In this document: positions 6,407 through 42,053 of the stretch, one piece after another
Layout of the letters: each line of letters begins with the position of its first letter
Position numbering within the stretch: position 1 is the first letter of the stretch
Assembly (NCBI GenBank): GCA_902587755.1
Contig: CACIMN010000002.1
Span: 62,001 to 126,000, forward strand
Origin: an uncultured Pelagibacteraceae bacterium
GTDB taxonomy: Bacteria > Pseudomonadota > Alphaproteobacteria > Pelagibacterales > Pelagibacteraceae
Length of the DNA: 64,000 bases
Direction of reading: 5' to 3'
Position numbers and translations under genes: made by a program
Notes under the pieces: generated by a model
Databases searched by the model: none
The model's input: only the letters and a program-made list of their open reading frames with translations
Told to the model about the DNA's origin: nothing

Positions 6407-6480
6407 TGGAGGCAACGCCCGGAATCGAACCGGGATACAAGGATTTGCAATCCTCTGCGTAACCATTCCGCCACGTTGCC
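6407..6480 (-). tRNA. tRNA-Cys (anticodon GCA)
   Basis: Minus-strand cloverleaf with acceptor GGCAACG/CGTTGCC, anticodon stem GAGGA/TCCTT around loop TTGCAAA (anticodon GCA), T arm CCGGTTCGATTCCGG, discriminator T and encoded CCA. It is probably co-transcribed with tRNA-Asn downstream. The 6481-6604 gap before valS must hold the divergent promoters, but no clear consensus is seen. Confidence 0.97.
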
Positions 6481-26926: not shown

Positions 26927-28427
26927 AGTTTTTAAAAATAAACAAAATTTAAAATTAAAACCTGCTAAATTAGCAGTTATTGATATAGGATCTAATTCTA
27001 TTAGGATGCTAATTTATGAAGATTTTAGCTCTTCTCGTGTGCCATTTTTCAATGAAAAAGCTGTTTGTGAACTTGGTAAAAATTTAGATAAATCAAGAAA
27101 ACTTCATAAGTCTGGTGTTGATTATGCTCAAAAAGTATTGAAGAGATTTTCAGAGATTTTAAATGTTTCTAAAATTGTTAATTTAAAAATAATAGCAACT
27201 GCTGTTTTAAGAGAAGCAACTGATGCAAAACCATTTGTTGAATATGTAGAAAATCTTTTTAAGAAAAAAATAGAAATCTTAAGTGGTGAGGAAGAAGCAA
27301 TTTGTTCAGCAGAAGGTGTTAAAATTGGATTTGATAATGTAGATGGGTTAGTTGCTGATCTTGGTGGAGGTAGTTTAGAACTAGCTCGAGTTGAAAATGG
27401 TTTGATCACTAATAAAACATCTTTACCCTTAGGTGTTTTAAGATTAATAAATAATCCAATTGTAAAAAAGAGAAACCTTTCCAAATATATAAAAAAACTT
27501 TTCAAAGACGAGAAATGGTTATCTAAAAAAAAATTTGAAAAACTATATTTAGTTGGTGGAACATGGAGAGCTTTATTTAAACTTCATTTGTTTCAAAATA
27601 AACACCCTGTCCACATAATTCATCAGTATTCGGTAAATTATGAAACTATATCATCATTTTTAGAAAAAATTGCATCTTTCAATAAAGCAAAACTAAAAAC
27701 AGTTGAATATATATCTAAATCTAGAACACCTTATCTACCATACAGCGCTATAATATTAGATGAGATCATGAATGTAACAAATCCAAAAAACATAATATGT
27801 TCTATAAGCGGAATTAGAGAGGGATCTCTAGCAAAAGATTACTTTAAAAATATTGATAACTCTCAAGTTTTTGAGAAATCATTAGAATATATTTCTAAGA
27901 AAAGAGGTGATTTGGGATTAACTTACAAAAAATATCATGAATTTATCAAACCTGTATTTGAGGGTAATGAACATTTTAATGAAAAATTACTTAATTTGGC
28001 TTGTGTTTTAAGTCATATGGATTGGGGACTTGGTGCTTTTCAAAAGGCAGAATTAGTTTTTCAAGAAACATTAAATACCCCTTTATTGAGACTTTCACAT
28101 AAAGAAAGAATTCAAATAGCTCTTTCATGTTATTGGAGGTACTGCAGCATTAAATACAACCCTAAAATAGAATATTTGACATTTTTAAATAATAATGAAA
28201 TTTTTTCTAGTAAACAAGTTGGTGCAGCCTTAAGATTTGCTCACTCACTTACATCTATTTCAACTATCTTCTTAGAGGAATTTAAATTGTATAAAAGAGG
28301 TAACTCTGTATTTTTAAAAATTCCAGCACAACATCAAGAAATAATTTCTAAACAAGTTACAAAAAGATTTAAAGCTCTTGCACGAGAATTATTTTTAGAA
28401 CCAAGAGTATTATATTCAAATAGTTAA
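26916..28427 (+). CDS. ppx: Exopolyphosphatase / Ppx-GppA phosphatase
   Basis: Hydrolyses terminal phosphate from polyphosphate and, in some members, pppGpp. The 503 residues have an actin-like ATPase fold with VIDIGSNSIRMLIYED near the N-terminus and LVADLGGGSLELARVENG. A C-terminal HD-like helical region contains LACVLSHMDWGLG. The GTG at 26916 lies inside ppk, giving tight coupling. Length is typical of Ppx rather than the shorter single-domain GppA proteins. Confidence 0.92.
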   Translation: MEIKVFKNKQNLKLKPAKLAVIDIGSNSIRMLIYEDFSSSRVPFFNEKAVCELGKNLDKSRKLHKSGVDYAQKVLKRFSEILNVSKIVNLKIIATAVLREATDAKPFVEYVENLFKKKIEILSGEEEAICSAEGVKIGFDNVDGLVADLGGGSLELARVENGLITNKTSLPLGVLRLINNPIVKKRNLSKYIKKLFKDEKWLSKKKFEKLYLVGGTWRALFKLHLFQNKHPVHIIHQYSVNYETISSFLEKIASFNKAKLKTVEYISKSRTPYLPYSAIILDEIMNVTNPKNIICSISGIREGSLAKDYFKNIDNSQVFEKSLEYISKKRGDLGLTYKKYHEFIKPVFEGNEHFNEKLLNLACVLSHMDWGLGAFQKAELVFQETLNTPLLRLSHKERIQIALSCYWRYCSIKYNPKIEYLTFLNNNEIFSSKQVGAALRFAHSLTSISTIFLEEFKLYKRGNSVFLKIPAQHQEIISKQVTKRFKALARELFLEPRVLYSNS

Positions 28428-28571
28428 ACTCTTTAAAAAAAACACAACTATTAGTTTAATAATAGTTTCTTTGTAATAAATTTTTAATAAAAAATAAATA
28501 TTTCATTCATTTTTATTTTATAAATAAATTATAAAATATTTAAATTTTTAATTATCAATCCACCCCTTAAT

Positions 28572-28600
28572 ATACGCTCGATTAATTTTATCGGGCGTAT
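28572..28600 (+). terminator. Probable terminator downstream of ppx
   Basis: ATACGCTCGAT (28572-28582) pairs with ATCGGGCGTAT (28590-28600) around loop TAATTTT, with a U-G pair that only forms in plus-strand RNA. A T-rich run follows. It closes the agt/pst/ppk/ppx side and faces the convergent aquaporin gene. The rest of the 28428-28621 gap is plain A+T-rich sequence. Confidence 0.65.
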
Positions 28601-28621
28601 TTATTATAACTTTAAAATTTT

Positions 28622-29281
28622 TTAATTTTTTTTTAAGAATAATTTTTTTGCAATAAAAACAGCAATTAACATACCAATTAATTCAGCAACTATATAAAAA
28701 GGAGTGTTTAAATAACTTATACCAGTAAAAGACTCTGTGAATGTTCTTGCTATTGCTACAGCAGGATTTGCAAAGGATGTTGATGAAGTAAACCAATAAC
28801 CAGCTGTAATATATAACCCAACAGATGCAGCTACGGTAATTTTACCTGACTTCATGGATCCAAAAATAATGATTATTAGTCCTAAAGTAGCAATAATTTC
28901 TGATACAAAAATGTAGATACCATCTCTTGATTTTGTCGATAATTCAAAAATCTGATGTTCAAAAAAGAAATTAGCTAAAGCCACACCTAACAAACATCCT
29001 AGGATCTGAGCTGAAATATAAAAGGGTAGAAGACGTTTTTTTAACTTTCCTGTAATTGTCATAGCAATACTTACAAATGGATTGAAATGAGCCCCAGACA
29101 CATCAGCAAAAACAGTTATTAGCACAAACAATCCAGCTCCAGTTGCTATAGTATTTGCAATTAGCATTACCGCTGTATCATTGGTAAGATTTTCTGCCAT
29201 TAAACCTGACCCAACTATGATCATTACTAGAAAGCAACTTCCAATAAATTCTGAAAGAAAATATTTTTTTTTATTTTTCAT
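28622..29281 (-). CDS. MIP-family aquaglyceroporin, AqpS-like, probable arsenite channel
   Basis: Channel protein of 219 residues with six membrane spans. The two half-helix motifs are HFNPFVSIA (NPF instead of NPA) and SFANPAVAIARTFTESF (intact NPA). The second block resembles alphaproteobacterial aquaglyceroporins found in arsenic operons, such as Sinorhizobium AqpS, which releases arsenite down its gradient. It overlaps arsC by 11 bases, supporting that role. Glycerol or water conduction is an alternative, and a glycerol-phosphate gene set lies nearby. Confidence 0.85.
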   Translation of the reverse strand: MKNKKKYFLSEFIGSCFLVMIIVGSGLMAENLTNDTAVMLIANTIATGAGLFVLITVFADVSGAHFNPFVSIAMTITGKLKKRLLPFYISAQILGCLLGVALANFFFEHQIFELSTKSRDGIYIFVSEIIATLGLIIIIFGSMKSGKITVAASVGLYITAGYWFTSSTSFANPAVAIARTFTESFTGISYLNTPFYIVAELIGMLIAVFIAKKLFLKKN

Positions 29282-29702
29282 CTAGCCAATCTTTAATTTT
29301 ATTGCTTATAATATTAAAAGTGTTTCTAATGATTATTTGCTTTTCTTCGTTATTTGCAGTTTGAAGTTTAGCCACTGGATCGTCTATATTCCAGTGTATA
29401 ATTTGGTTTTTATCAGGCCAAATAGGACATACCTCATTATTTGCGTTATTACATACTGTTATTACATGATCCATTTTTATTTCATTATTTATAAACTCTT
29501 CAAAGTTTTTAGAACTATAATTAGTTAGATCATAATTTTTATTTTTCTCTAAAAAACTTCTAACATCAATATTAATTGTTCCAGATGGATTACTACCAGC
29601 ACTAAAAGCTTTAAATTTATTTGAGTATTCATTATTGATAATACTCTCAGCTATAATGCTTCTTGCTGAATTTCCTGTGCATACAAATAAAATATTTTTC
29701 AT
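29271..29702 (-). CDS. arsC: Arsenate reductase, low-molecular-weight phosphatase type
   Basis: Reduces arsenate to arsenite in the cytoplasm. The 143 residues have the LMW-PTP P-loop VCTGNSARS near the N-terminus and the second redox pair region VITVCNNANNEVCPIWP, which distinguishes thioredoxin-coupled ArsC from true tyrosine phosphatases. It is flanked by a small membrane gene (one-base overlap) and the AqpS-like channel. Position next to the high-affinity phosphate importer makes sense, since Pst systems admit some arsenate. Confidence 0.92.
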   Translation of the reverse strand: MKNILFVCTGNSARSIIAESIINNEYSNKFKAFSAGSNPSGTINIDVRSFLEKNKNYDLTNYSSKNFEEFINNEIKMDHVITVCNNANNEVCPIWPDKNQIIHWNIDDPVAKLQTANNEEKQIIIRNTFNIISNKIKDWLDEK

Positions 29703-29926
29703 TAAAAAATAATTTTATAAATTCCGATTACAAATAATGGAATTTGTAATCCAAAGTTAGTTAAAATGGCCTTATCCTTTAATAAGAAACCTGAAATTGT
29801 CCATCCAACAACACCAAGCCCATGAAAATAAATATTCAGCGGGTAAATATTAAGATTTGTAAGTAAAATACCTGTTAACACTAAAAGTGTACTGATCCAC
29901 TTAAGATATTTTTTTAAAAATGACAT
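29702..29926 (-). CDS. Small membrane protein, first gene of the arsenic operon
   Basis: A 74-residue protein with two or three hydrophobic spans (WISTLLVLTGILLTNL, YFHGLGVVGWTISGFLL, FGLQIPLFVIGIYKIIF). I do not recognise a named family. Its stop overlaps the arsC start (TAATG on the minus strand), so it is probably translated with arsC and the channel. Its first codons (MSFLKK) and upstream region are duplicated 8,053 bp away beside phyH, where only a relic of the start remains. Confidence 0.75.
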   Translation of the reverse strand: MSFLKKYLKWISTLLVLTGILLTNLNIYPLNIYFHGLGVVGWTISGFLLKDKAILTNFGLQIPLFVIGIYKIIF

Positions 29927-30036
29927 TCAAAATTTATATGAATGTTTTGTTAAAGATTTATTACAATAAACTTTAATGTGATTTAATTTTATTGAAGTTC
30001 AAAGATAGAAACATAATGTTTCATTTTAGGGAATGG
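29909..30036. repeat. Left copy of the 128-bp direct repeat flanking the glp/ugp island
   Basis: Aligns without gaps to 37962-38089 with 16 mismatches in 128 positions by hand. The core 29951-30022 has only three. Read on the minus strand it contains a phyH tail relic, an intergenic spacer and the true start of the small membrane gene. Offset between copies is 8,053 bp. No terminal inverted repeats or transposase are seen. Confidence 0.85.
29989..30036 (-). pseudogene. Relic of the C-terminal end of phyH
   Basis: On the minus strand this segment reads FPKMKHYVSIFELQ and a stop, against PLPKRKHYVSIYELQKN at the end of the intact phyH (38036-38917). It is a 3' fragment of about 14 codons without start, ribosome-binding site or upstream body. 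It lies in frame just beyond the TGA of glpD, as expected if an insertion cut phyH's old neighbour junction. Confidence 0.75.
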
Positions 30037-30039
30037 AAA

Positions 30040-31191
30040 TCAAAAAAGCTTCTTTTTGTGTGTCCATGGACCTTTTTTTGTCTTAGGTAAAAACCTTTTT
30101 AGATCAACAAGAACTTTTTCGGACAATTTTCTGTAGGTGGTAAGTTTTCCTCCATAGATATTCAATAAAGGCAATTTTTTAATAATTTTTAGATCAAAAA
30201 CATAATCCCTTGTAACTTTTGAAGCTGAATTAAAGTCTTCAATTAAAGGTCGTATTCCTGAATAAGTATCTACGATGTCCTTTGTTCTGATTTGTTTTTT
30301 TAAGTAATTGTTTACTGAATTAATTAAATAGCTAATTTCTTTTTTAGATATCCCTTTATTTTCTGGTGATTTCACTTCCACTTCAGTTGTTCCAATTAAA
30401 GAAAACTTCCCTTTATAAGGTAACACAAATATTATTCTTTTATCTGTATTTTGAAATGTGAATGCAACGTTTTCTTTGTACAATTTTTTTGTAATGATAT
30501 GACTTCCCTTAACCAGTCTTATTTTTTTCTTAGATTTTATTTTTATATTTTTATTTAAAGTTTCATTTATCCATGGTCCAGATGCATTGATTAAAACTTT
30601 TGATTTTATTTTTTTTCCATTTTGAAGACTAATGACCCACTCATTATTAATAATTTCAGCTTTTTTAACTTTGTTATATTCTAGTATTTTAGCGTTGTTT
30701 CTTTTTGCATCTTGAGCGTTTAACTTTGTTAATTTTTTATCATCAATTTGAATGTCAAAATATTGAAAACCAGTTTTATATTTTTCTTTAAGAATATTTG
30801 AATATTTTTTTGTAAGATCAAATTTTTTTGATTTTGGTATATTGCTTTTGCCACCTAAATTGTCGTACAAAAACAAACCAAATTTAATTAACCAGGCTGG
30901 TCGAATTTTATCTGCATAAGGAATTATAAAAGGAATCGGTTTGGAAATATGTTTAGCAATTTTATAAACAATTTCTCTTTCTTTGAGAGATTCTCTAACT
31001 AATTTGAATTCATAATTTTCTAAATAACGAAGACCACCATGTACTAATTTCGTCGACCAAGATGAGGTTGCTCCTCCAATCTCACCTTTGTCAGCTAAAC
31101 AAACTGATAAACCTCTACCTGCAGCATCCCTCGCAATACCTGCGCCGTTTATACCGCCGCCTATTATGAATAAATCAAAAATTTTAGACAT
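30040..31191 (-). CDS. glpD: Glycerol-3-phosphate dehydrogenase, FAD-dependent, C-terminally short
   Basis: Oxidises glycerol-3-phosphate to dihydroxyacetone phosphate at the membrane, passing electrons to quinone. The N-terminus has the FAD-binding IIGGGINGAGIARDAAGRG, then GGATSSWSTKLVHGGLRYLE, and later TYSGIRPLIEDF and NIYGGKLTTYRKLSEKV. It stops at 383 residues, just after GPWTHKKKLF. Canonical GlpD continues for about 120 residues with a helical DAO_C domain. The stop lies four bases from the repeat boundary, suggesting truncation during island capture. Whether it is active is uncertain. Confidence 0.85.
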   Translation of the reverse strand: MSKIFDLFIIGGGINGAGIARDAAGRGLSVCLADKGEIGGATSSWSTKLVHGGLRYLENYEFKLVRESLKEREIVYKIAKHISKPIPFIIPYADKIRPAWLIKFGLFLYDNLGGKSNIPKSKKFDLTKKYSNILKEKYKTGFQYFDIQIDDKKLTKLNAQDAKRNNAKILEYNKVKKAEIINNEWVISLQNGKKIKSKVLINASGPWINETLNKNIKIKSKKKIRLVKGSHIITKKLYKENVAFTFQNTDKRIIFVLPYKGKFSLIGTTEVEVKSPENKGISKKEISYLINSVNNYLKKQIRTKDIVDTYSGIRPLIEDFNSASKVTRDYVFDLKIIKKLPLLNIYGGKLTTYRKLSEKVLVDLKRFLPKTKKGPWTHKKKLF

Positions 31192-31247
31192 TTAAATCAT
31201 GATTTTTTAAAAATATACAACCTCTTTTAGAAATTTAAAATTTTTAA

Positions 31248-31269
31248 ATGAAATTATTTACAATTTCAT
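31248..31269. promoter_or_regulatory. Dyad in the glpD-ugpB divergent promoter region
   Basis: ATGAAATT-ATTTAC-AATTTCAT is an 8-bp perfect inverted repeat with a 6-bp spacer, located between the divergent starts of glpD (31191) and ugpB (31336). The layout suits an operator shared by both units. No convincing Pho box is visible in this 144-bp gap, so the module may answer to a substrate-sensing repressor instead. The responsible regulator is not in the window. Confidence 0.35.
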
Positions 31270-31335
31270 AATACCTTAACATTAATTAATTATTAATAAA
31301 AAATAAAATAAACTAAACTTAACAGAAGGATAGAT

Positions 31336-32643
31336 ATGAAAAAAATACTTAGTGTTTTAACAATTCTATTTACTTTCTCTTTTACATCACACAGTTATTC
31401 AAAAACAGAAATTCATTGGTGGTACGGAAACAGTGGTTTTCTTGGTGATGTAATTATTGAAATTGCAAATAGATTTAACGCTTCACAAGATCAATATACG
31501 GTCATTCCTACAGGAAAAGGAAGTTATGAAGATAACATGGCGGCAACTATTGCTGCATTTAGAGCAGGAGACCAACCACACTATTCACAGGTTTATGATG
31601 CTGGTGCTGCAATAATGGTAGCGCAAGTAAAAAATGGTGTTGTCATCGGTTTTGAAGAAATGGCAGAGAAATATGGCATTGATGTAGATGCTGACAATTA
31701 TATTCCAGGCATTAAAAATTTCTATGCAGACTCTGATGGAAAAATGATTGGTGTGCCTTTCAATAGCTCAACTTGTTTGATGTATGCAAACATGGACATA
31801 TTGAAAAAAGTAGGAATTGAGTCAGTTCCAAAAACTTATGAAGAGTTTGAGGCTATAGCTCCAAAAATTAAAGCTGCCGGATACATACCTTTAGTTCAAA
31901 GTCACTTTCCTTGGATATGGACAGAAAATTTCTTTTCAAGACATAATCTACTTATGACTGATGGAAACAATGGTTACGATGCTGTTCCAACAAAAACTTT
32001 ATTTGCTGAAACAGATGCATTTGTAATGCATTGGAAAAAAGTCAAGGAATGGTATGAAAAAGGCTTTTATGGATATAAAGGAAGAGCGTGGGGAGATAAC
32101 CAAGCTCCATTTATAGCTGGTGAAGCTGCATTTTGGTTTGGTTCAGCTGCTTCGTTCGGTGGAATGAAAGGTGTTGTACCTAACTTTACAGTAAACCATA
32201 TTCCTTACTGGGATTCTGTAACTGGTGGTAAAGAGTATCCAACGTTTATCGGAGGTGCTGCTAACTGGATCTTAAATGGTCATACTGAGGAAGAGTACAA
32301 AGGACTTGCTAAATTTATAGAATTTATGGGTTCTCCAGAGATGGATCTGTATTATCACAATATGACTGGTTACTCTGCAGTAACTAAAGGTGGAATAGAG
32401 TTAGCTGAAACTATAAATTTCTATAGAGCTTCTCCATATCATAAAGCAGTTGGTGAACAATTAAGCTTAGAAGGTTCGACTATTCCTGGTGGATATAGAG
32501 CTGGTAATTGGCCACAAATTCGTGAAGTAATTTACGAAAATGTTGAGCCAATGTTAAACGGCAAAATATCAATCGAAAAAGGATTGCAGAACATGGATAA
32601 AGGTGCAGCTAAATTGTTAAAACAATTCGCTAAAACTTTATAA
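31336..32643 (+). CDS. ugpB: UgpB, glycerol-3-phosphate-binding protein
   Basis: Periplasmic receptor for sn-glycerol-3-phosphate and glycerophosphodiesters such as glycerophosphocholine. The 435 residues have a signal peptide (ILSVLTILFTFSFTSHSYS) and the UgpB motifs IHWWYGNSG, YDAGAAIMVAQVKNGVV and the C-terminal WPQIREVIYENVEPML. AGAAGGAT precedes the ATG at 31336. First gene of the importer operon and followed by a terminator hairpin. It diverges from glpD. Confidence 0.93.
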   Translation: MKKILSVLTILFTFSFTSHSYSKTEIHWWYGNSGFLGDVIIEIANRFNASQDQYTVIPTGKGSYEDNMAATIAAFRAGDQPHYSQVYDAGAAIMVAQVKNGVVIGFEEMAEKYGIDVDADNYIPGIKNFYADSDGKMIGVPFNSSTCLMYANMDILKKVGIESVPKTYEEFEAIAPKIKAAGYIPLVQSHFPWIWTENFFSRHNLLMTDGNNGYDAVPTKTLFAETDAFVMHWKKVKEWYEKGFYGYKGRAWGDNQAPFIAGEAAFWFGSAASFGGMKGVVPNFTVNHIPYWDSVTGGKEYPTFIGGAANWILNGHTEEEYKGLAKFIEFMGSPEMDLYYHNMTGYSAVTKGGIELAETINFYRASPYHKAVGEQLSLEGSTIPGGYRAGNWPQIREVIYENVEPMLNGKISIEKGLQNMDKGAAKLLKQFAKTL

Positions 32644-32655
32644 TTAATAATTTAA

Positions 32656-32690
32656 ATAAGGAGGGTGTTGATTTACCCTCCTTATTTTTT
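32656..32690 (+). terminator. Intrinsic terminator between ugpB and ugpA
   Basis: ATAAGGAGGGT (32656-32666) pairs perfectly with ACCCTCCTTAT (32675-32685) around an 8-base loop and is followed by a T run. ugpA starts 11 bp further on, so partial read-through must supply the permease genes. Confidence 0.88.
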
Positions 32691-32701
32691 ATTTTACTTA
32701 T

Positions 32702-33580
32702 ATGAAAAAAGTCCAATTTAAATCTAGCTATTCACAATATTTATTCTTAGCACCACAGTTAGGAATTTTATTAATTTTTTTATATTGGCCAATCATACAA
32801 ACCTTCAGAGATGCATTTACAATGCAAGATGCTTTTGGATTTGGAGCGACGTTTGTATGGTTTGATAATTTTTTATTTATTTTTGATGATCCAGCTTATT
32901 TTATAGCTTTCAAATTTACTATTATTTATAGTTTTGCAATTACATTAATTACCGGCTCAATCGGTTTGCTGCTTGCCGTTCAGGCCAATAATGTAATACA
33001 TGGTAAAAGCACTTACAAAACACTTTTAATTTGGCCTTATGCAATTGCGCCTGCGGTTGTAGGTGTAATGGCAAATTATTTTTTTAGTGAAAGATTTGGG
33101 CTCCTTTATCATTTATTTCACGAACTTTGGGGTTTCAATTGGTACGAGAGTGTTTTTGACTCGTATATTTATGTAATAATAGCTGGTTCTTGGAAACAAA
33201 TCAGTGCTAATTTTATTTTCTTCTTGGCAGGTCTTCAAGCTATACAAAAATCTGTAATTGAAGCATCAATGATTGATTGTAAAAATAGTTTTAGAAGATT
33301 TTGGACAATTACATTCCCATTATTAATGCCAACTACATTCTTCTTAATAATTATTAATATAACCTATGCTTTCTTTGATACATTTGGAATTATTGATACT
33401 ACAACGATAGGTGCTCCTTCAGGTGAAACAAGAACTCTAGTTTATAAAGCCTACATGGATGGATTTAGAGGATTAGATTTAGGAAGTGCTGGAGCTCAAT
33501 CAATAATGATGATGTTGATTGTATTAGTAATTACAATTTTTCAATTTAGATATATCGAAGGGAAAATACATTATAATTAA
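32702..33580 (+). CDS. ugpA: UgpA, glycerol-3-phosphate ABC transporter permease
   Basis: Inner-membrane permease of the carbohydrate-uptake-1 type. It has 292 residues with six spans, starting YLFLAPQLGILLIFLYWPI as in UgpA, and an EAA loop KSVIEASMIDCKNSFRRFWTI followed by TFPLLMPTTFF. Its stop overlaps the next ATG (TAATGA). The partner is one or both of the UgpE-like permeases that follow. Confidence 0.92.
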   Translation: MKKVQFKSSYSQYLFLAPQLGILLIFLYWPIIQTFRDAFTMQDAFGFGATFVWFDNFLFIFDDPAYFIAFKFTIIYSFAITLITGSIGLLLAVQANNVIHGKSTYKTLLIWPYAIAPAVVGVMANYFFSERFGLLYHLFHELWGFNWYESVFDSYIYVIIAGSWKQISANFIFFLAGLQAIQKSVIEASMIDCKNSFRRFWTITFPLLMPTTFFLIIINITYAFFDTFGIIDTTTIGAPSGETRTLVYKAYMDGFRGLDLGSAGAQSIMMMLIVLVITIFQFRYIEGKIHYN

Positions 33581-34401
33581 TGACTAGATTTATCACATCA
33601 AGTTTTTCACATTTAATTTTAATCATTGGAATACTTATCATGGTACTTCCTGTGTGGATGATTTTTGCTAGCTCAACGCACACAAGTTCAATGATTAATA
33701 TGAATGGTCTCCAAATGTTTTTAGGAGATAGCTTTTATGAAAATTACTTACGGGTTTTATTATATCAGGGTGGTTTCTTTAAAGAGATAACAGCATTAAA
33801 AATGTTTTTTAATAGTTTTTTAATGGCTACGGGAGTTGCAATTCTATCCGTTGTCACATCTTTAATGGCTGCCTACGCATTGGTTTATTATAGAATAAAA
33901 CATGCAACATTATTGTTTTGGATAATTTTTATCACGATATTAGTACCACTAGAGTTAAGAATTTTTCCTACTTATTCAGTAATGGCTGAACTTAATTTAG
34001 TAAATTCTTACTTTGGATTAATAGTTCCAATTTCAGCATCAGCTATAGCAACATTATTCTTTCGACAATTTTATAAAACTGTTCCAGATGAATTACTTGA
34101 GTCTGCAAAACTTGATGGGGCAAATACCTGGAGATTTTTTGTTGATTTTTTAATTCCTTTGTCAAAAACGATGATTGTAGCGATGTTAATATTTATGTTT
34201 GTTTTTGGTTACAATCAGTACTTATGGCCGCTATTGGTAACAACTTCAGAACAATATTGGACAGTGGTTATGGGATTAAAAATGATGTCGGGTTCTATTG
34301 TTCATCGTTTTGCTTTTGTGATGATGTCTATGGTTCCACCAATTTTAATTATAATTGTGTTGCAGAAACATTTTATTAAGGGGGTTTTTCAAGATAAATG
34401 A
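33580..34401 (+). CDS. ugpE: UgpE-like permease, first copy
   Basis: Second permease type of the Ugp importer, 273 residues, six spans. It begins with LILIIGILIMVLPVWMIFAS and has the EAA loop PDELLESAKLDGANTWRFFVDFL followed by PLSKTMIVAMLI, split here to show key positions. It is closely related to the next gene. The two share the SSTH/SSSH loop, VPLELRIFPTY/VPLEVRIFPSY and the EAA region. It overlaps the second copy by four bases (ATGA). Confidence 0.88.
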   Translation: MTRFITSSFSHLILIIGILIMVLPVWMIFASSTHTSSMINMNGLQMFLGDSFYENYLRVLLYQGGFFKEITALKMFFNSFLMATGVAILSVVTSLMAAYALVYYRIKHATLLFWIIFITILVPLELRIFPTYSVMAELNLVNSYFGLIVPISASAIATLFFRQFYKTVPDELLESAKLDGANTWRFFVDFLIPLSKTMIVAMLIFMFVFGYNQYLWPLLVTTSEQYWTVVMGLKMMSGSIVHRFAFVMMSMVPPILIIIVLQKHFIKGVFQDK

Positions 34402-35249
34402 AAATTAAACCACTTCAAATAATTGCTCATATTATTTTAATATTAGGGGTATTGTTAATGGTAGTTCCTATTTGGATATCTTTTGCAAGTTCTTCACATG
34501 ACTCTGTAACTATACTGACGGAAGGTATGAAGTTTCATATAGGTGATCAGCTAGCAAGAAACTATAACGAAGTTTTAAATGAAAAAGGTGGTTGGTCAGA
34601 AGAAGTGACTGCTGCAAAAATGTTTATTAATAGTTTTATAATGGCATTAGGGATTGCAACACTTAAAGTAGTTATTTCTGCAATGTCAGCATATGCTTTG
34701 GTTTATTATAGATTTAAATTAGCTGTACCAATTTTTTGGTTAATCTTTATTACTCTACTTGTTCCTTTGGAGGTAAGAATTTTTCCAAGCTATAAAATTG
34801 TATCTGATTTAGGTTTAACAAATTCATACACAGGCCTTATTCTTCCGTTAGTTGCTTCAGCTACAGCAACTTTTTTCTTCAGACAATTTTACAAAACAAT
34901 TCCAGATGAACTTTTGGAGTCGGCAAAATTAGATGGAGCAAATGCTTGGAGTTTTTTCATAGATTTCTTGGTACCACTATCAAAAACTATGATAGCAGCA
35001 ATGTTTATCTTTATGTTCGTATATGGATATAGCCAATATTTATGGCCGCTAATAATGACAACTGCAGAAGAATATTGGACTGTTGTAATGGGAATGAAAA
35101 TTATTTACACAGAAAGCTATGAAGGAGTTGCTTTGCCAAGAACAGCAGAAAGATTTGCATATATAATTTTATCAATGATCCCACCAGTTTTAGTGGTAGT
35201 ATTTTTACAAAAATGGTTCATAAAAGGATTAATTCAAACGGAGAAATAA
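34398..35249 (+). CDS. ugpE: UgpE-like permease, second copy
   Basis: Tandem paralogue of the preceding gene, 283 residues, starting with HIILILGVLLMVVPIWISFAS and having PDELLESAKLDGANAW in the EAA loop. Compared with the first copy it carries a short insertion near the C-terminus (YTESYEGVALPRTAERFAYI). Standard Ugp operons have a single ugpE, so this importer may assemble as UgpA with alternative partners. One base separates it from ugpC, so all are translated together. Confidence 0.88.
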   Translation: MKIKPLQIIAHIILILGVLLMVVPIWISFASSSHDSVTILTEGMKFHIGDQLARNYNEVLNEKGGWSEEVTAAKMFINSFIMALGIATLKVVISAMSAYALVYYRFKLAVPIFWLIFITLLVPLEVRIFPSYKIVSDLGLTNSYTGLILPLVASATATFFFRQFYKTIPDELLESAKLDGANAWSFFIDFLVPLSKTMIAAMFIFMFVYGYSQYLWPLIMTTAEEYWTVVMGMKIIYTESYEGVALPRTAERFAYIILSMIPPVLVVVFLQKWFIKGLIQTEK

Positions 35250-36302
35250 ATGAGTTTTTTAGATTTAAAAAATGTGACTAAGATTTATCCAAACGGAACT
35301 AAGGCTGTTCACGAAACTTCATTAAGTGTAGATGAAGGAGAGTTTATGGTTTTTGTAGGACCAAGTGGATGTGGAAAATCAACTTTATTAAGAATGGTTG
35401 CAGGTTTAGAGGACATTACAGAGGGTGATATTAATCTTGATGGAAAATTAATTAATGAAGTTGATCCATCTGAGAGAGATGTAGCAATGGTGTTTCAGAA
35501 CTATGCATTATACCCACATATGAATGTGTATAATAATTTGGCTTATGGTTTAAAAAACAGAGGAATTGATAAAGAAACAATTGAGCAAAAAGTAAATGAT
35601 GCAGCTAAACTGTTACAAATTTCAGATTATTTACAGAGAAAACCTTCAATGTTATCTGGAGGTCAAAGACAAAGGGTTGCTATGGGAAGAGCAATTGTAA
35701 GAAATCCAAAAATATTCTTATTTGATGAACCTCTTTCAAACTTAGATGCAAAATTAAGAATTCAGATGAGACTTGAAATTAAAAAACTTCAACAAAAGGT
35801 TGGAGTAACAAGTATATTTGTTACACATGATCAAGTTGAGGCCATGACACTTGCTGACAGATTGGCAGTAATTAATAATGGAATTATTGAACAGCTTGGA
35901 ACTCCTATTGAGATATATGATAATCCAAAATCTTTATTTGTTGCTGGTTTTATTGGTTCACCTCAAATGAATTTTTTAAATGGTAATTTAAAAAATAAAA
36001 CATTATCTGCAGAAGGTTTTGAAATTAAAGATGTTAATACTGACTTTGAGGGTGAGGTTACATTAGGAATAAGACCTGAGCATTTAGTACAATCTGAGAG
36101 TGGTTTAATTAATTTAACAGTAGACTTAGTGGAACAGCTTGGTTCGGATAATATTGTTTATGGTCAATTGAAAAATAAAAAAGACTTTTGTTATAGGTGT
36201 CCAGGAAATCAAACTGTTGAAAAAGGTTCTAATTTAAGAGTAAATATGGAGAACAATAAATATTATATTTTTGATAAAAGTACTGGCAAAAGAGTTAATT
36301 AA
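35250..36302 (+). CDS. ugpC: UgpC, glycerol-3-phosphate ABC transporter ATPase
   Basis: MalK-type ATPase of 350 residues. The nucleotide-binding domain has Walker [10 protein letters not shown] (about 39-47), Q-loop VFQNYALYPHM, signature MLSGGQRQRVAMGRA, Walker B IFLFDEPLSNLDAKLR and switch VTHDQVEAMTLA. A C-terminal regulatory OB-type domain starts around residue 240 (IGSPQMNFLNG, LGIRPEHL). Position after the permeases and before ugpQ supports the Ugp assignment over other sugar importers. Confidence 0.92.
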   Translation: MSFLDLKNVTKIYPNGTKAVHETSLSVDEGEFMVFVGPSGCGKSTLLRMVAGLEDITEGDINLDGKLINEVDPSERDVAMVFQNYALYPHMNVYNNLAYGLKNRGIDKETIEQKVNDAAKLLQISDYLQRKPSMLSGGQRQRVAMGRAIVRNPKIFLFDEPLSNLDAKLRIQMRLEIKKLQQKVGVTSIFVTHDQVEAMTLADRLAVINNGIIEQLGTPIEIYDNPKSLFVAGFIGSPQMNFLNGNLKNKTLSAEGFEIKDVNTDFEGEVTLGIRPEHLVQSESGLINLTVDLVEQLGSDNIVYGQLKNKKDFCYRCPGNQTVEKGSNLRVNMENNKYYIFDKSTGKRVN

Positions 36303-36304
36303 AT

Positions 36305-37225
36305 TTGATTTTAAGTAAACCAAATCATATAAAAATTTATGGTCATCGAGGAGCTAGAGGTGATCTTCCTGAAAATACTTTAGAGAGTTTCAAATATTTA
36401 TTTGATAATAATTTTAGTGGATTAGAAGTAGATATTTTATTTTCTAAAGATTCGGTGCCAGTAATTACCCATGATTTTTTCTTAGACAGAGATCAGACTA
36501 AAGACTTAGATGGTAATTGGATAGAAGATGAATATATGAAAATTAATAGTAAAACTTATAAAGAATTATTAAATTATGATATAGGAGCTGTTAATAAATT
36601 ATCTAGTTATGGCAGAAGATTTTTAAATCAAAAAAGTTTAGAAAACCAGAGAATACCAAATTTAAACAAATTATTTAAATTATTAAAATCTTATGAAACT
36701 GAAGATTTAATAATTAATTTAGAATTTAAGTCTAGTCCATTAATTAGCAATCTAGTTCCTGAACCTATTGAGATTGTAAAACTTGTAAAGCAAGAAATAG
36801 AAGTCTCTAATTTAAGCGATCGAATTTTAGTTTCTTCCTTTGATTGGAGAGTTTTAAAAGAATTTAAATTACAATTACCAAAAATTTCTAGAGGTTATTT
36901 ATCAACACAACAAGAATTAAAAAAAACAAGGAAAAATATTTATGAAAATTCACCTTGGATGGGGTTTATTCCATTTTTTAATAACAGTGAAATTCCAGAA
37001 GTTATAAATAATTTAGGTGGAATTGCTTGGCATCCTTTTTACAAAGATATAAAAAAAAAAAATATTGAAGAAGCACACAATCATGGACTAGTGGTAAATA
37101 CTTGGACTGTAAATAGAGAAAGCGACATGATGCGGATGATTGAATATGGTGTAGATGGAATATTTACAGATTATCCTCTAAGGCTGAAAGAACTTTGTGA
37201 AAAAGAAAATAAAAAATGGTTTTAG
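36305..37225 (+). CDS. ugpQ: Glycerophosphodiester phosphodiesterase
   Basis: Cleaves imported glycerophosphodiesters into glycerol-3-phosphate and an alcohol (choline, ethanolamine, glycerol). The 306-residue GDPD (TIM-barrel) protein has the catalytic HRGARGDLPENTLESF (about 14-29), the metal ligands EVDILFSKD and HDFFLDRDQT, and C-terminal NTWTVNRESDMMRMI with GVDGIFTDYP. There is no signal peptide, so it acts in the cytoplasm like UgpQ. The TTG at 36305 lies two bases after ugpC. It provides substrate for GlpD. Confidence 0.92.
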   Translation: MILSKPNHIKIYGHRGARGDLPENTLESFKYLFDNNFSGLEVDILFSKDSVPVITHDFFLDRDQTKDLDGNWIEDEYMKINSKTYKELLNYDIGAVNKLSSYGRRFLNQKSLENQRIPNLNKLFKLLKSYETEDLIINLEFKSSPLISNLVPEPIEIVKLVKQEIEVSNLSDRILVSSFDWRVLKEFKLQLPKISRGYLSTQQELKKTRKNIYENSPWMGFIPFFNNSEIPEVINNLGGIAWHPFYKDIKKKNIEEAHNHGLVVNTWTVNRESDMMRMIEYGVDGIFTDYPLRLKELCEKENKKWF

Positions 37226-37234
37226 TATATTTTA

Positions 37235-37945
37235 ATGGATTTAAACATAGTTAATAATGAGGAAAAGTTTTTAGCAGGTAAACTTGAAGGTTACACTTTA
37301 AAAGGTGCTGAAAATAAATTTGACAACAAAGGAAACCCTATATCATTTCCAGGCTGCACAATAATTTGCAATATTCCTATTAATACCGATTTATCTAATC
37401 AAATTATTAGTTTCCAAAAAAAAATAGAAAATTTTAATCCTAAAAAAACTTATTTCTATTTACCTCCATCTAGTTTTCATATGACATTATTTGATTGTTG
37501 TAATTTAAATACAAAAAACACCAATTATTGGCCATCCGATATAGATCCTGATATGGATTATAAAGATATAGCTGTTGAATTAAATAAAAAAATTGAAAAT
37601 TATAATTTTCCAAAACAATTTAATCTTAAACTAAAAACTTTTTTTGGTGGTTATAGTATTATTTTAGTACCCTTTTCTGAAAAGGATGAAAAAATTCTAA
37701 GAAATTGTAGAGATGAACTTAGTAGCTTGTTAAAAATTAAATTTGAAAATCATCAAAGATATACTTTCCATATTACTTTAGCTTATATTTTGAGACAACT
37801 TAATGAGACTGAAATAAAAAACTTAATTGAATTTAATAAACAACTATCCTCTGACTTTAATAAAAAATTTCCAAAAATTACTTTCAAAAAACCTGAAATG
37901 TGTACTTTTAAAGATATGCTGGAGTTTAAAAGTATTAATTCTTAA
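37235..37945 (+). CDS. 2H phosphoesterase-like protein (DUF1868-like)
   Basis: A 236-residue cytoplasmic protein with two HxT motifs, SSFHMTLFDCC (about residues 86-96) and YTFHITLAYI (about 183-192), the hallmark of the 2H phosphoesterase superfamily that includes LigT and cyclic phosphodiesterases. Overall it resembles the DUF1868 group. It starts nine bases after ugpQ, inside the operon. A link with cyclic glycerol phosphates or related phosphodiesters is a reasonable idea but is not established. Confidence 0.75.
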   Translation: MDLNIVNNEEKFLAGKLEGYTLKGAENKFDNKGNPISFPGCTIICNIPINTDLSNQIISFQKKIENFNPKKTYFYLPPSSFHMTLFDCCNLNTKNTNYWPSDIDPDMDYKDIAVELNKKIENYNFPKQFNLKLKTFFGGYSIILVPFSEKDEKILRNCRDELSSLLKIKFENHQRYTFHITLAYILRQLNETEIKNLIEFNKQLSSDFNKKFPKITFKKPEMCTFKDMLEFKSINS

Positions 37946-37979
37946 AGCCTGTAATAGTTTTTTTTTTTAGAAATGACAT
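37941..37979 (-). pseudogene. Relic of the 5' end of the small membrane gene
   Basis: On the minus strand, ATG at 37979 begins MSFLKK exactly like the intact gene at 29926, then diverges to KNYYRL and a stop at 37941. Only the first six codons (37962-37979) lie in the repeat. It is what remains of an ancestral gene start that once followed phyH directly. Confidence 0.65.
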
Positions 37980-38089
37980 TTGATTTTTATATAAATGTAA
38001 TTTTAAAGATTTATTACAATAAACTTTAATGTGATTTAATTTTTTTGAAGTTCATAGATAGAAACGTAATGTTTCCTCTTAGGCAGTGG
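37962..38089. repeat. Right copy of the 128-bp direct repeat flanking the glp/ugp island
   Basis: Matches 29909-30036. It covers the last 18 codons of intact phyH including the stop (38036-38089), its 56-bp downstream spacer, and a relic start of the small membrane gene. Conservation of the non-coding spacer is as high as that of the coding part, which speaks for a shared DNA ancestry rather than protein-level constraint. Confidence 0.85.
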
Positions 38090-38917
38090 GATAATGGTTG
38101 GAACTTTAGTCAATCTTGGTTTTATTGATTTATTTCCTACAATTATATTTTTGTCATAATTTTCCAAATCAACCTCAGGATGAGGATTTCCATCATTGAT
38201 TAATGGCCACGCATCACAAGCTCTATAACCAAATAAAATTAAGGGTCTTGAGTTATTCATTTGATTGTGTCCAGACCCATGAACTGATCTACAATGAAAA
38301 AATACTACTGTTCCTGCTGTGCCAGTTATAGAAACACTATCTTTAGTTCCTATTTTATTTTTTTTAGTGTCTATTTTTCCAACAAAATAATTTTCTTTGC
38401 TGTGGTGGCTGTACAATTTCTTTTTGTGTGAATTCTTTATTATTTTAAGTGGCCCATTTTTCTCGTAGCAATCATCTAAATATATACCAACTGTAATTAA
38501 ATCATCGTTCGTATGAGGGTAAAAAGCCCAATCTTGGTGCCATCCAATTTCACTGCCTTTTTTCTTATTTGGAAGCTTAAAATTTAATTTACCTAGATGA
38601 AATCTTACTGTTCCACCTAATAATTTTTTAGCTATGGATATAATTCTTTTATCTCTAGATAATTCATAGAAAACTTTATGCCTGTTCTGAGGATTATTTA
38701 GTCTTAGAATTTCTTTATTTTTTGGAGAACCTGAATTGTAGACAAAATGGTAATTATCATAAGACTGAGTTCCATTTACACCATTACCTTTTTTTCTTTT
38801 TTTTTCTTTTGAAATTACTTCATTAACAATTTTATTAATTTTATTTATCTTTGTTTGAGAAATTAGATTTTCTTTAACTAGAAAGCCATTTTTTTTAAAT
38901 AAATTCAAATCATTCAT
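38036..38917 (-). CDS. Phytanoyl-CoA dioxygenase (PhyH) family oxygenase
   Basis: Fe(II)/2-oxoglutarate-dependent oxygenase of 293 residues. It has the iron-binding HQD in IGWHQDWAFYPH and distal histidine in RSVHGSGHN, with the 2-oxoglutarate arginine in RPLILFGYR. PhyH proteins act on varied substrates (lipids, ectoine, phosphonates), so the reaction is unknown. It lacks a signal peptide. It is the last of a minus-strand series from znuA through peroxiredoxin. Its 3' end is the source of the repeat that brackets the glp/ugp island. Confidence 0.85.
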   Translation of the reverse strand: MNDLNLFKKNGFLVKENLISQTKINKINKIVNEVISKEKKRKKGNGVNGTQSYDNYHFVYNSGSPKNKEILRLNNPQNRHKVFYELSRDKRIISIAKKLLGGTVRFHLGKLNFKLPNKKKGSEIGWHQDWAFYPHTNDDLITVGIYLDDCYEKNGPLKIIKNSHKKKLYSHHSKENYFVGKIDTKKNKIGTKDSVSITGTAGTVVFFHCRSVHGSGHNQMNNSRPLILFGYRACDAWPLINDGNPHPEVDLENYDKNIIVGNKSIKPRLTKVPTIIPLPKRKHYVSIYELQKN

Positions 38918-39003
38918 AAATGCAGATTATAAATAAAAATAAATCTTCTTATAAAAAAATACAATGTTTAATTAAATTATTAATAAAATTTAGTAATTTT
39001 AAA

Positions 39004-39597
39004 TTATTTTTTTAATGCATCTTCAAGATAATCCAATCTATCTTGACCCCAAAAAATCTCATTATTTAAGACATATGAAGGAGCACCAAATACATGGTTA
39101 TTAACTGCATCTTTTGAATTTTTTTGGTACTCAATGTTTACTTCGTCAGTTAAAGCTAACTTTTTCATTTCCTCAAAATTTAAATTTAATTTTTCACAAA
39201 TTTCCCGAAGTATTTTGTGATCTGAAAGATCTTTATCCATAGACCATAAATATTTTAAACACTCATTTCCAAAATGAAGTTTATTTCCCATTTTATTTGA
39301 GGCGATTACAAATTTTGCTGGCAAATGTGGATCACTAGGTGGAAAAAATTTTGGCTGTTTAATAATTGGCAAACCTAATTTATTTGAAATTCTCTCCATT
39401 TCCAAAAGTCTGTACTTTTGTCTTGCAGGGTGTCTTTTAGGAACTGGTAATCCTCCGGTATTTGGAAAAATTTCACCAACTAAATCAAGTGGTTTTTCTA
39501 TTACTTCTAAATTATATTGACTTACTATTTTTGTAAATCTATCAGCACCTAAGTAAGTAAATGGAGACAAGACACTAAAATAATATTCAATTTTCAT
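39004..39597 (-). CDS. 2-hydroxychromene-2-carboxylate isomerase-like (DsbA/GSTK fold) protein
   Basis: A 197-residue thioredoxin-like protein with the HCCA-isomerase start YYFSVLSPFTYLGADRF, helix insert with PFFPPSDP-like KFFPPSDPHLPAKF, and C-terminal NHVFGAPSYVLNNEIFWGQDR with the cis-Pro in GAPSYV. The catalytic position is Ser (VLSP) rather than Cys, as in glutathione-dependent isomerases. The aromatic pathway genes that give the family its name are absent here, so the true substrate is open. Seven bases separate it from the peroxiredoxin upstream. Confidence 0.85.
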   Translation of the reverse strand: MKIEYYFSVLSPFTYLGADRFTKIVSQYNLEVIEKPLDLVGEIFPNTGGLPVPKRHPARQKYRLLEMERISNKLGLPIIKQPKFFPPSDPHLPAKFVIASNKMGNKLHFGNECLKYLWSMDKDLSDHKILREICEKLNLNFEEMKKLALTDEVNIEYQKNSKDAVNNHVFGAPSYVLNNEIFWGQDRLDYLEDALKK

Positions 39598-39604
39598 TAT
39601 TTAT

Positions 39605-40144
39605 TTAATTAAGTGCAAACTGCTTAATTTTTTCAAATTCAAAATGATCTGCAATGTCCTTTTTAGCATAATAAACATCTTGAACTACACCATCCTCATT
39701 AATTAGAACGTCGGTCACAGCTATATCTAAATGACCTTTTATTCTTGTAGGAATATATCCTTTCATCATAGCAGGAATAATTTTATGTGCTTTAAACAAA
39801 ATTGCGTTTAGTGTTTTACTCACTGATCTCTCAATTTCATATTTTTGAAAATATTCAAAATTTTCATCTGCTAATACTGTGAATGGTAAATTCTTATGCT
39901 TATCCATATATGATTTTAAATTATCTACTGGTGAATGAAATATTCCAACATGCGTAAAATTATTTCCAAGTTCACCAAATCTCTTATTAATTTCATTAAG
40001 TCTTAGGTTGCAGAAGCTACAACCTGCGATTCTATAAAAAGTTAATAAGACTTTTTTCCCTAAGGTCTGAGATAAATTAAATGAGTTACCATTCTGATCT
40101 GGAAGTGTAATTTCCTCTAATTTATCACCAGTGCTAATTTTCAT
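39605..40144 (-). CDS. AhpC/TSA-type peroxiredoxin-like protein
   Basis: A 179-residue thioredoxin-fold protein, likely reducing peroxides in the cytoplasm. It has LLTFYRIAGCSFCNLRLNEI, with a C-x-x-C pair at the active site, and FTVLADENFEYFQKYEI of the AhpC/TSA core. A C-x-x-C instead of a single peroxidatic Cys makes a thiol-disulfide reductase role possible. It is followed closely by the HCCA-isomerase-like gene, so the two may share a redox or glutathione-related job. Confidence 0.82.
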   Translation of the reverse strand: MKISTGDKLEEITLPDQNGNSFNLSQTLGKKVLLTFYRIAGCSFCNLRLNEINKRFGELGNNFTHVGIFHSPVDNLKSYMDKHKNLPFTVLADENFEYFQKYEIERSVSKTLNAILFKAHKIIPAMMKGYIPTRIKGHLDIAVTDVLINEDGVVQDVYYAKKDIADHFEFEKIKQFALN

Positions 40145-40176: not shown

Positions 40177-41235
40177 TTAACAACCTTTAAACGAAGCAGA
40201 CATATTTCTAATTAAATTGAAATACAAGTCTTTTCCTGGGTCTAAAGTCGCTCCTAATGGGTCAACTACACCGGTTTTAATATTCATATCTTTTGCAACT
40301 GCTTTAATGATATCAGGGTTGAATTGAGGTTCAGAAAATACACAAGCAACTTTATCGTGTTCAATTATCTCTCTGATTTCTGCTAGTTGTTCTGCTCCAG
40401 GCATTACATCTGTATTAACAGTAAAAGCACCTAATATATTTACATTAAATCTTTTCTCAAAATACTGATAAGCATCATGGAATACAATTGAAGCAACACT
40501 GCTACTTAAATCAGTCATTACATCAATTGTAAGTTTATCGATTTCTTGTAAAGCTTTAGCTAAATTACTTTTATATTTAGCTTCATTTTTAGGATCATTT
40601 TCAATTAAATGTTCTGCCATTTCATTTAACATAGCTTTTGCATTAATTGGGTCCAACCAAATGTGTGGATCGAATTCACCATGAGCATGTCCATCATGAT
40701 CGTCATGTCCGTGGTCGTCATGATCATCCTCTTTTTTACCATGATCGTCATGATCGTGGTCGTGATCATCTTCTTTTTTACCATGGTCATCATGTCCATG
40801 ATCGTCATGATCATCTTCTTTTTTACCGTGATCGTCATGTCCATGATCGTCATGATCATGTTCGTCAAAAATATTTCTTTCTCTAAATTTTAGTACCTGT
40901 AATCCTTTAGTATCCATCAATTCAATTTTTTCTGCTTTCTTAGCAATTGAACTCAATGGTTTTTCTAAAAAACTCTCTAAATCTTCACCAACCCAGAATA
41001 TTAGATCTGCATTTTGAAGCATTTTTGCGTGCGAAGGTTTCATTGCAAATCCGTGTGGAGAAGCATATCCATCAACTATTAAGTCAGGTTTAGCAATACC
41101 ATTCATTAAGTAACTAGCTAATGAATGAATTGGTTTAATAGAAGCAACTACTTTTATTTCTGCATTTGCTGGTGTAAAGAATGTTAGAATTGATAATATT
41201 GAGAATATAAGTGGTATTTTTTTAATATTTTTCAT
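40177..41235 (-). CDS. znuA: ZnuA, zinc-binding periplasmic protein
   Basis: Periplasmic receptor for Zn2+ of the Znu importer. The 352 residues start with a signal peptide (IPLIFSILSILTFFTPANA) and show zinc ligands in DGYASPHGFAMKPSHAK, FDPHIWLDP and VFHDAYQYFEKR. A 60-residue loop is made of His/Asp repeats (about residues 125-185) expected to collect zinc. It ends with a Cys, as often seen with an internal disulfide. It diverges from znuCB-zur over two Zur-like boxes. Confidence 0.95.
   Translation of the reverse strand: MKNIKKIPLIFSILSILTFFTPANAEIKVVASIKPIHSLASYLMNGIAKPDLIVDGYASPHGFAMKPSHAKMLQNADLIFWVGEDLESFLEKPLSSIAKKAEKIELMDTKGLQVLKFRERNIFDEHDHDDHGHDDHGKKEDDHDDHGHDDHGKKEDDHDHDHDDHGKKEDDHDDHGHDDHDGHAHGEFDPHIWLDPINAKAMLNEMAEHLIENDPKNEAKYKSNLAKALQEIDKLTIDVMTDLSSSVASIVFHDAYQYFEKRFNVNILGAFTVNTDVMPGAEQLAEIREIIEHDKVACVFSEPQFNPDIIKAVAKDMNIKTGVVDPLGATLDPGKDLYFNLIRNMSASFKGC
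40681..40866 (-). repeat. In-frame tandem repeat coding the His/Asp-rich loop of ZnuA
   Basis: About 3.5 units of 15 codons (DHDDHGHDDHGKKED and shorter variants, 42 or 45 bp) are visible, with GATCGTCATG-like words recurring on the plus strand. Units differ by whole codons, so the frame is kept. Such repeats expand and contract readily and should vary between strains. Confidence 0.9.
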
Positions 41236-41255
41236 AATAAGTAATTTAATTGGTT

Positions 41256-41288
41256 GTTATAATATAACGTTATGTAATAATATAACAT
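41256..41288. promoter_or_regulatory. Two Zur-box-like palindromes in the znuA-znuC promoter region
   Basis: GTTATAATATAAC (41256-41268) is a perfect palindrome. ATGTAATAATATAACAT (41272-41288) is a 17-bp palindrome with one mismatch. Both match the TGTTATA-x-TATAACA form of alphaproteobacterial Zur sites. They lie in the 71-bp gap between the divergent znuA and znuC starts, and zur itself is the third gene of the znuC unit, so zinc-dependent repression of both sides with feedback is expected. Confidence 0.82.
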
Positions 41289-41306
41289 TTATAAGTCAAG
41301 CAATAT

Positions 41307-42053
41307 ATGAGCTCAGAAAATAGTACATTAGTAAAATTAAATAACGCTGGTTTTAAACAAAATGATAAATGGCTAGTGGAAGGCGTTTCATTAACTGTTG
41401 AAAAGGGAAAAATCGTTACCCTTATTGGACCTAATGGATCTGGAAAAAGTACTACCGCAAAAATTGCATTGGGAATTTACAAAAACATAGAAGGAAGTGT
41501 TGAGAAATACACAAATAAAGTTGGATATGTTCCTCAAAAAATATCTATTGATTGGACCTTACCTTTAAGAGTTTATGATTTTATGCTTCTAACTGAAAAT
41601 ATTAAAGATGAGGCAATTGATGAAGCACTTACATTAACAGGTGTTATCCATCTTAAGAATAAAAATTTAGGAAATTTATCAGGTGGTGAATTTCAAAGAG
41701 TTTTAATTGCAAGAGCTATTTCAAAAAAACCTGAATTATTAGTTCTTGATGAACCTGTTCAAGGAGTTGATTATACTGGTGAGATTGCTTTGTATGAATT
41801 AATAAAAAGAATTTCTGATACACTAAATTGTGGAATTCTATTAATCTCTCATGATCTACATACAGTTATGACCGCAACTGATCATGTGGTTTGTTTAAAT
41901 GGTCACGTATGTTGCTCTGGATCACCAATGGATGTTGCTAAAAATAATGAATATAAAACCTTATTTGGTGAACAAGCATCTCAAATTCTTTCTGTATATG
42001 AACATAAACATGATCACGTTCATTCAGACAAAGGTGAAATAAAGAAAAATTAA
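41307..42053 (+). CDS. znuC: ZnuC, zinc ABC transporter ATPase
   Basis: ATPase of the zinc importer, 248 residues. It has Walker A GPNGSGKST (about 40-48), signature NLSGGEFQRVLIARA, Walker B LLVLDEPVQGVD and switch ISHDLHTVMTATDHVVC. The C-terminal His-containing tail EHKHDHVHSD is common in ZnuC. It lies directly downstream of the Zur-like boxes and zero bases before znuB. Confidence 0.95.
   Translation: MSSENSTLVKLNNAGFKQNDKWLVEGVSLTVEKGKIVTLIGPNGSGKSTTAKIALGIYKNIEGSVEKYTNKVGYVPQKISIDWTLPLRVYDFMLLTENIKDEAIDEALTLTGVIHLKNKNLGNLSGGEFQRVLIARAISKKPELLVLDEPVQGVDYTGEIALYELIKRISDTLNCGILLISHDLHTVMTATDHVVCLNGHVCCSGSPMDVAKNNEYKTLFGEQASQILSVYEHKHDHVHSDKGEIKKN

Follow-up and report, generated by a model that had tools for sequence, protein, structure and literature searches.

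In the 64,000-nucleotide stretch that we analysed (hereafter the window; positions 62,001 to 126,000 of contig CACIMN010000002.1, assembly GCA_902587755.1, from an uncultured Pelagibacteraceae bacterium of SAR11, a group abundant in the ocean), a 7.9-kb block is inserted between a phyH family dioxygenase gene and a small membrane gene, and the junction between these two neighbours is duplicated. This island is an organophosphate cassette, which consists of glpD, ugpB, three ugp permease genes, ugpC, ugpQ and a gene for a 2H phosphodiesterase. A first reading of the letters alone (the original prediction) had listed glpD, ugpB, ugpA, ugpE, ugpE2, ugpC, ugpQ and 2H, and the assignment of the products to protein families showed this list to be correct. 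The families point to a role in the uptake and breakdown of glycerophosphodiesters and glycerol-3-phosphate. The genes of the island and its two neighbours are as follows.

29702–29926, minus strand: small membrane gene, left neighbour (Pfam DUF6552)
30040–31191, minus strand: glpD, glycerol-3-phosphate dehydrogenase, 383 aa
31336–32643, plus strand: ugpB-like solute-binding protein
32702–33580, plus strand: ugpA-like permease (25.4 bits, just under the 26.4-bit cut-off)
33580–34401, plus strand: ugpE-like permease 1
34398–35249, plus strand: ugpE-like permease 2
35250–36302, plus strand: ugpC ATP-binding protein
36305–37225, plus strand: ugpQ-like glycerophosphodiester phosphodiesterase, TTG start
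37235–37945, plus strand: 2H phosphodiesterase
38036–38917, minus strand: phyH family dioxygenase, right neighbour

The duplicated junction and its relics

The segments at 29909–30036 and 37962–38089 align without gaps over 128 bp with 16 mismatches. Local alignment of the flanks gave a score of 176, far above chance and above what an A+T-rich background produces: the mean of 500 first-order Markov resamplings was 27.4 (standard deviation 3.2) and their maximum 40. The 72-bp core with three mismatches described in the original prediction agrees with the computed alignment, in which the longest exact run is 41 bp (repeat positions 42–82). The parts of the two copies are listed below, with the strand where a part has one.

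29909–30036: left repeat copy, with the intact small-gene start, the spacer and the phyH-end relic
29950–29990: 41-bp core of the left copy, identical to 38003–38043 and containing an AT-rich hairpin
29991–30036, minus strand: relic of the phyH 3' end, 4–5 of 46 bases off the nearest intact end, with an early stop (KHYVSIFELQ-stop)
37962–38089: right repeat copy, with the small-gene-start relic, the spacer and the intact phyH end
37962–38002, minus strand: relic of the small-gene 5' end, 8 of 41 bases off the nearest intact start
38003–38043: 41-bp core of the right copy

The relics are thus reciprocal, as had been proposed, and this pattern is seen in all seven carriers in which the left junction was read, the window among them. 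The intact phyH stop lies in the right copy, at 38036–38038. When each relic is compared with the other copy of the repeat, the right one is mismatched at 9 of 41 positions and the left one at about 5–7 of 46. Since seven carriers (the window, L033, L034, L035, L036, L038 and L041) hold both copies on a single contig, an assembly artefact is ruled out as the source of the repeat.

Empty sites, carriers and exchange between strains

Out of a larger group, 399 genomes of the genus were searched for the right junction, glpD and a circle junction; the search with the right junction scored two candidates per genome, and so reveals a second copy but not a third. With the right junction, some match at E 1e-6 or better was obtained in 66 genomes and a full-length junction in 25. 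Eight of the latter are carriers (G000, G112, G146, G196, G262, G298, G305 and G337). The other 17, among them the one-contig genome G106, have a single copy and no island, which is the arrangement predicted for island-free strains; both neighbours, the small gene and phyH, flank the junction within about 1.5 kb in 16 of them, and the contig of G006 (row L188) stops a few bases into the small gene. These single-copy empty sites, together with the reciprocal relics in all seven left-junction carriers, establish that phyH and the small gene were once neighbours and that the block was inserted between them with duplication of the junction, as the original prediction had held. The island is not ancestral everywhere; it is present in some close relatives and absent from the same site in others.

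The same joins and both relics were found in every carrier read, that is in 7 left copies and in 13 right copies, the latter number including two probable repeats (L175 and L181 are probably L105 and L037). The junction therefore has a single origin. A glpD of the island family is present elsewhere in 5 of the 17 empty genomes (G006, G065, G106, G235 and G278), and in G106 ugp genes lie about 8 kb from it. Weak right-junction matches in G074, G335, G100, G116, G013, G102, G194 and G169 (L204–L212) were considered as a source of the relic and dropped; among the alignments listed they are gapped and A+T-rich, and lack island genes. In three further loci (L200–L202, from G400, G022 and G197) a response-regulator gene stands directly beside phyH and the mip-arsC-small gene set is missing.

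Among the seven carriers, nucleotide diversity is lowest in the island (0.0018); it amounts to 0.0070 in the mip-arsC-small gene segment, to 0.0116 in ppx and to 0.041 in the part of phyH outside the repeat. Accordingly, the carriers are close to 100% identical to the window across ppx and the whole island, and less so at phyH. In a phyH tree built from 13 carrier rows, the probable repeats L175 and L181 included, and 16 empty ones (L191 was left out because of its short contig), carriers are interleaved with empty strains, with 6 label changes of which at least 3 are forced by well-supported branches. The carrier L036 is 89–93% identical to the empty strain G074 over the first 300 bp to the right of the repeat and 98–100% identical beyond; this switch marks a crossover that fell within phyH. 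Their left flanks are 71–99% identical, mostly 90–97%. L038 and G116 give a similar picture with a shorter tract. From the near-clonal island, the diverse phyH, the interleaved tree and the switch tracts of L036 and L038, we conclude that the cassette and its junctions are carried into other backgrounds by homologous exchange through the flanks, as in flexible islands, with crossovers inside phyH. The reason for the low diversity of the island is likely a selective sweep.

We also observed that znuA-znuC-znuB (40177–42857) is 76–83% identical to the window in several carriers and 92–98% in others; this segment may be a second exchange spot near the island.

Possible routes of entry

With the 2H protein as query, 116 loci were found on contigs of named genomes; the best 80 were kept, all of them labelled Pelagibacteraceae or Pelagibacter. 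Ten have the arrangement of the window, and in 70 the cassette occupies other chromosomal sites, such as the interval between a TauD-family gene and an aldehyde dehydrogenase gene (without glpD), the neighbourhood of a uracil-DNA glycosylase gene and the interval between ppx and the MIP channel gene. Where both ends were visible (67 loci), the flanking repeat scored 174–181 in 6 of 6 window-type (type I) loci and 25–37 in 61 of 61 others. In a second set of 13 loci, three window-type loci, on contigs already in the first set, scored 174–181 and the ten others 32–45. The ppx-MIP cassettes of L058, L061, L063 and similar loci, which belong to another SAR11 lineage and contain glpD, ugp and 2H genes, lie on the opposite side of the mip-arsC pair and have no flanking repeats. 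In the empty-site genome L114 a PhoX phosphatase gene fills the ppx-MIP gap.

The composition of the island is ordinary (GC 29.6% against 29.0%, and 76 of 113 window positions deviate more in tetranucleotides), and therefore gives no sign of a donor outside SAR11. The gene ugpQ stands apart in the operon: compared with other cassettes, the window-type ugpQ has about 60–70% protein and 70–72% DNA identity, while its neighbours ugpC and 2H have mostly 79–95% and 88–92% DNA identity. For this reason, it looks like a gene replaced inside the operon. The two adjoining ugpE-like genes (33580–35249), which bring the permease genes to three, are 66% identical in DNA over 300 bp. The 383-aa glpD product matches the full glycerol-3-phosphate dehydrogenase model (508 positions) only over its first 392; as 383–398 aa is also the length of most full-length relatives, the short form seems normal here. 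On the left side of the island, the label of arsenic genes is weaker than originally claimed, since the LMWPc-family protein reaches 71 bits against a curated arsenate reductase cut-off of 174; the channel beside this arsC-like gene is of the MIP family, under the NCBIfam cut-offs.

No transposase or integrase is encoded in the island, as the original prediction had stated, all eight genes being assigned to other families, and no transposase or insertion sequence copy was found at the island ends. None of the 25 longest among 153 inverted pairs links the two ends, and the duplication, at 128 bp, is not the short target duplication of a transposon. PADLOC assigned no defence family to 2H, ugpQ or the small gene.

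The two joins can be placed with some probability as follows.

30030–30036: putative left join, between the sequence downstream of glpD and the phyH end; a CCACTGC-type shared heptamer, now CCATTCC
37958–37968: putative right join, between the sequence downstream of 2H and the small-gene start, within a T run

For the left join, solo glpD loci have TAGATTTCCACTGC or close variants downstream of glpD, and type IV cassettes have TAATTTCCACTGT and variants. The phyH ends, read on their own strand, contain CCACTGCC, CCACTCCC and variants. The window-type join is TGATTTCCATTCCCTAAA, with the glpD flank on one side, phyH on the other and a shared middle changed at two bases. Depending on the alleles, 5–8 bp would be shared, the parents being deduced from relatives that are not themselves the donor; random position pairs in one such locus pair share at least 7 bp at a frequency of 0.0017 and at least 5 bp at 0.013. 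At the right join, judged from non-donor relatives as well, the conserved cassette tail GCCTGTAAYAGTTTTT enters the small-gene start in the T run. Such short shared bases fit end-joining or template switching without a circle.

We lean, with modest confidence, towards a non-homologous, microhomology-mediated capture with a 128-bp target duplication, followed by decay of the relics and then by spread through homologous recombination. The cassette would already have been circulating in SAR11 at other chromosomal sites when a single non-homologous capture placed it between phyH and the small membrane gene. A few bases common to both would have linked the glpD side of the cassette to the 3' end of phyH, and on the 2H side the link to the small-gene start would have formed in the T run. 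If the joins were staggered by about 128 bp, the junction would thereby have been copied on both sides and neither neighbour broken. This could have happened by fill-in of a staggered break, or by a replication fork that switched to the cassette and returned 128 bp behind. The useless half of each repeat copy would then have decayed, and the combined haplotype would have become more frequent and passed from strain to strain as RecA-type homologous recombination acted on the flanks.

Several observations weigh against this explanation. At the left join, CCATTCC is two bases off the heptamer proposed for the parents. Type III cassettes, which together with type II are the closest in most ugp genes, do not have the shared glpD 3' flank, and therefore the donor is not among the sampled cassettes; type IV and solo glpD loci do share this flank, and the true donor would lie outside the sampled loci. 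A microhomology in poly-T is cheap in a genome of 29% GC. On the phyH tree the carriers are not randomly placed, only 3–4 of 500 shuffles being equally clustered. Finally, the exact core with diverged arms argues against plain decay since a single duplication. With a single decay rate for arms and core, p is 0.002 for the right side, 0.057 for the left and 0.005 pooled, and the chance of an exact run of at least 41 bp given 16 random mismatches is 0.022. Of 20 carrier copies of the core, 19 equal a common natural allele and one is a single base off it. Among natural cores, up to 4 bases vary, or 8 if one counts row L198, which a short deletion has shifted in the alignment and which makes two of the natural distances too large. 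For the core to be exact, the copies must have exchanged sequence, or a crossover must have fallen in the core when the cassette integrated, or the core must be under constraint.

The second of these possibilities corresponds to the Campbell-type integration of the original prediction, in which a circular or tandem donor with the cassette and a diverged junction would have entered by a single crossover in the 41-bp core, the relics being donor alleles. The insert does have on each side a copy of a segment that empty strains have only once. The strongest point for this model is the exact core with diverged arms: 41 bp without a mismatch, with differences to the left and to the right, is the pattern expected around one crossover. 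In addition, even the closest intact start differs from the right relic at 8 of 41 bases, a distance that would suit a foreign allele. However, an exact-pattern search found no circle junction in the 399 genomes and viral contigs, a scan found no relatives of the 2H protein in viral contigs, and among the matches listed no phage or plasmid record covers 80% of the block, these matches extending over at most 10% of it with 66–71% identity, at the level of the ATPase and permease. Moreover, no intact allele like either relic occurs in the 17 empty sites and the carriers' intact halves, and for a circle with the 128-bp junction to form, the same two illegitimate joins would already have been required. 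We regard this route, the chief rival of the capture model, as possible but rather unlikely.

The relics may also differ in age. In a two-step scheme, the donor's cassette would first have been joined to a small-gene start beside phyH, which makes the right junction the older one. This DNA would then have entered an intact strain by homologous exchange at its phyH end and by an illegitimate join at its glpD end, a process known as homology-facilitated illegitimate recombination. One homologous and one microhomology end make this an economical case, and the right relic is more diverged than the left (9 of 41 against 5 of 46), as an older join would be. Yet this difference is not significant (p 0.24), and no donor-type locus without the left copy was found among the loci examined, since the right-only carriers (L037, L039, L040, L105, L175 and L181) end inside the island or before the left junction. 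This scheme seems unlikely to us.

The suggestion that the repeat could permit excision is made plausible by the 41-bp run, but the excision product was not found. It can be extended to a reversible, enzyme-free cassette, in which RecA exchange in the core would excise the island scar-free and reinsert it into any strain with an intact junction. The core would then be kept exact by use, and the relic arms would travel with the cassette. We consider this idea unlikely.

The core contains an AT-rich hairpin (29950–29976 and 38003–38029), and this raises the question of a site-specific element moved in trans by a recombinase such as the host Xer, with the palindrome as attachment site. Indeed, the inverted repeat folds as DNA better than its shuffles (−3.7 kcal/mol, z −2.3), and its 23-base centre occurs within its own genome only at the two repeats, with up to 3 mismatches allowed. 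As RNA, the right copy folds no better than shuffles (z −0.86), and no Rfam family was found within 28000–40000. The only tyrosine recombinase gene (PF00589) of the window's genome, which is 96% complete, stands outside the island at about 51 kb; none of the three tRNA genes of the window (the nearest at 6407–6480) is within 23 kb of the site; the palindrome is not kept in many empty strains, and the cassette occurs at other sites without any repeat. An element of this kind is thus very improbable.

Least credible of all is an ancestral island that the empty strains lost when the repeats recombined. Such a crossover, if in the core, would leave a scar-free phyH-small gene junction; but each copy contains a relic, which means that an intact junction was there first, phyH and the flanks of the empty strains are more diverged (flank identity 86–98%) than the near-clonal island, and none of the 16 empty strains tested has carrier-like identity on both flanks.

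Relation to known phosphorus islands

In HIMB59, phosphate-related flexible genomic islands with strain-variable phosphorus cassettes have been described next to ppk, ppx, SixA and a glycerol uptake facilitator (PMC10734472). Similarly, the window has ppk, ppx, a SixA-like frame and the MIP channel beside the site; however, the gene order differs, and the accessible part of that account mentions neither a ugp operon nor a duplicated junction. The phnCDE-ubiE operon entered Pelagibacter by non-homologous recombination (PMC12416821), and likewise serves organic-phosphorus transport; SAR11 cells acquired it recently, at a position where their relatives have nothing. Tyrosine recombinases and tRNA genes are reported beside that operon, and neither was found near the island here. 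Genes for the transport and metabolism of glycerophospholipids and glycerol-3-phosphate are reported for the coastal Pelagibacteraceae genus Undatipelagibacter, and sweeps were suggested to stabilise acquired genes (PMC12636525). That work shares with ours the ugp genes in Pelagibacteraceae but, in the portion available, does not describe insertion junctions. Replacement flexible genomic islands are exchanged by homologous recombination (PMC4033161). The island resembles them, as far as that source could be consulted, in its spread through homologous flanks without mobility genes, and differs in that its site alternates between island and nothing and in that the insertion itself is read as non-homologous. 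Among the titles and abstract starts that our searches of an open-licence library listed, we found no description of this insertion, nor of SAR11 with microhomology.

A benefit under phosphorus shortage may be supposed from the neighbourhood of the island (ppk, ppx and the response regulator, with PhoX in L114) and from the published phosphorus islands. The site lies where relatives carry other phosphorus genes, namely PhoX or a cassette independently inserted between ppx and MIP, and it therefore bears on how SAR11 adjusts to phosphorus supply. Nutrient cassettes are a frequent gain of streamlined ocean bacteria, but one seldom sees how a cassette first enters a genome when no mobility genes are involved. 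In the present case, sequenced single cells display the site before insertion, the two joins, the duplicated target and how it decayed, and the recombination that later spread the island. Should the capture model be correct, a duplicated junction would be a way to add genes between neighbours while breaking neither. If instead the cassette were reversible, a single illegitimate insertion would have given rise to a self-made attachment site.

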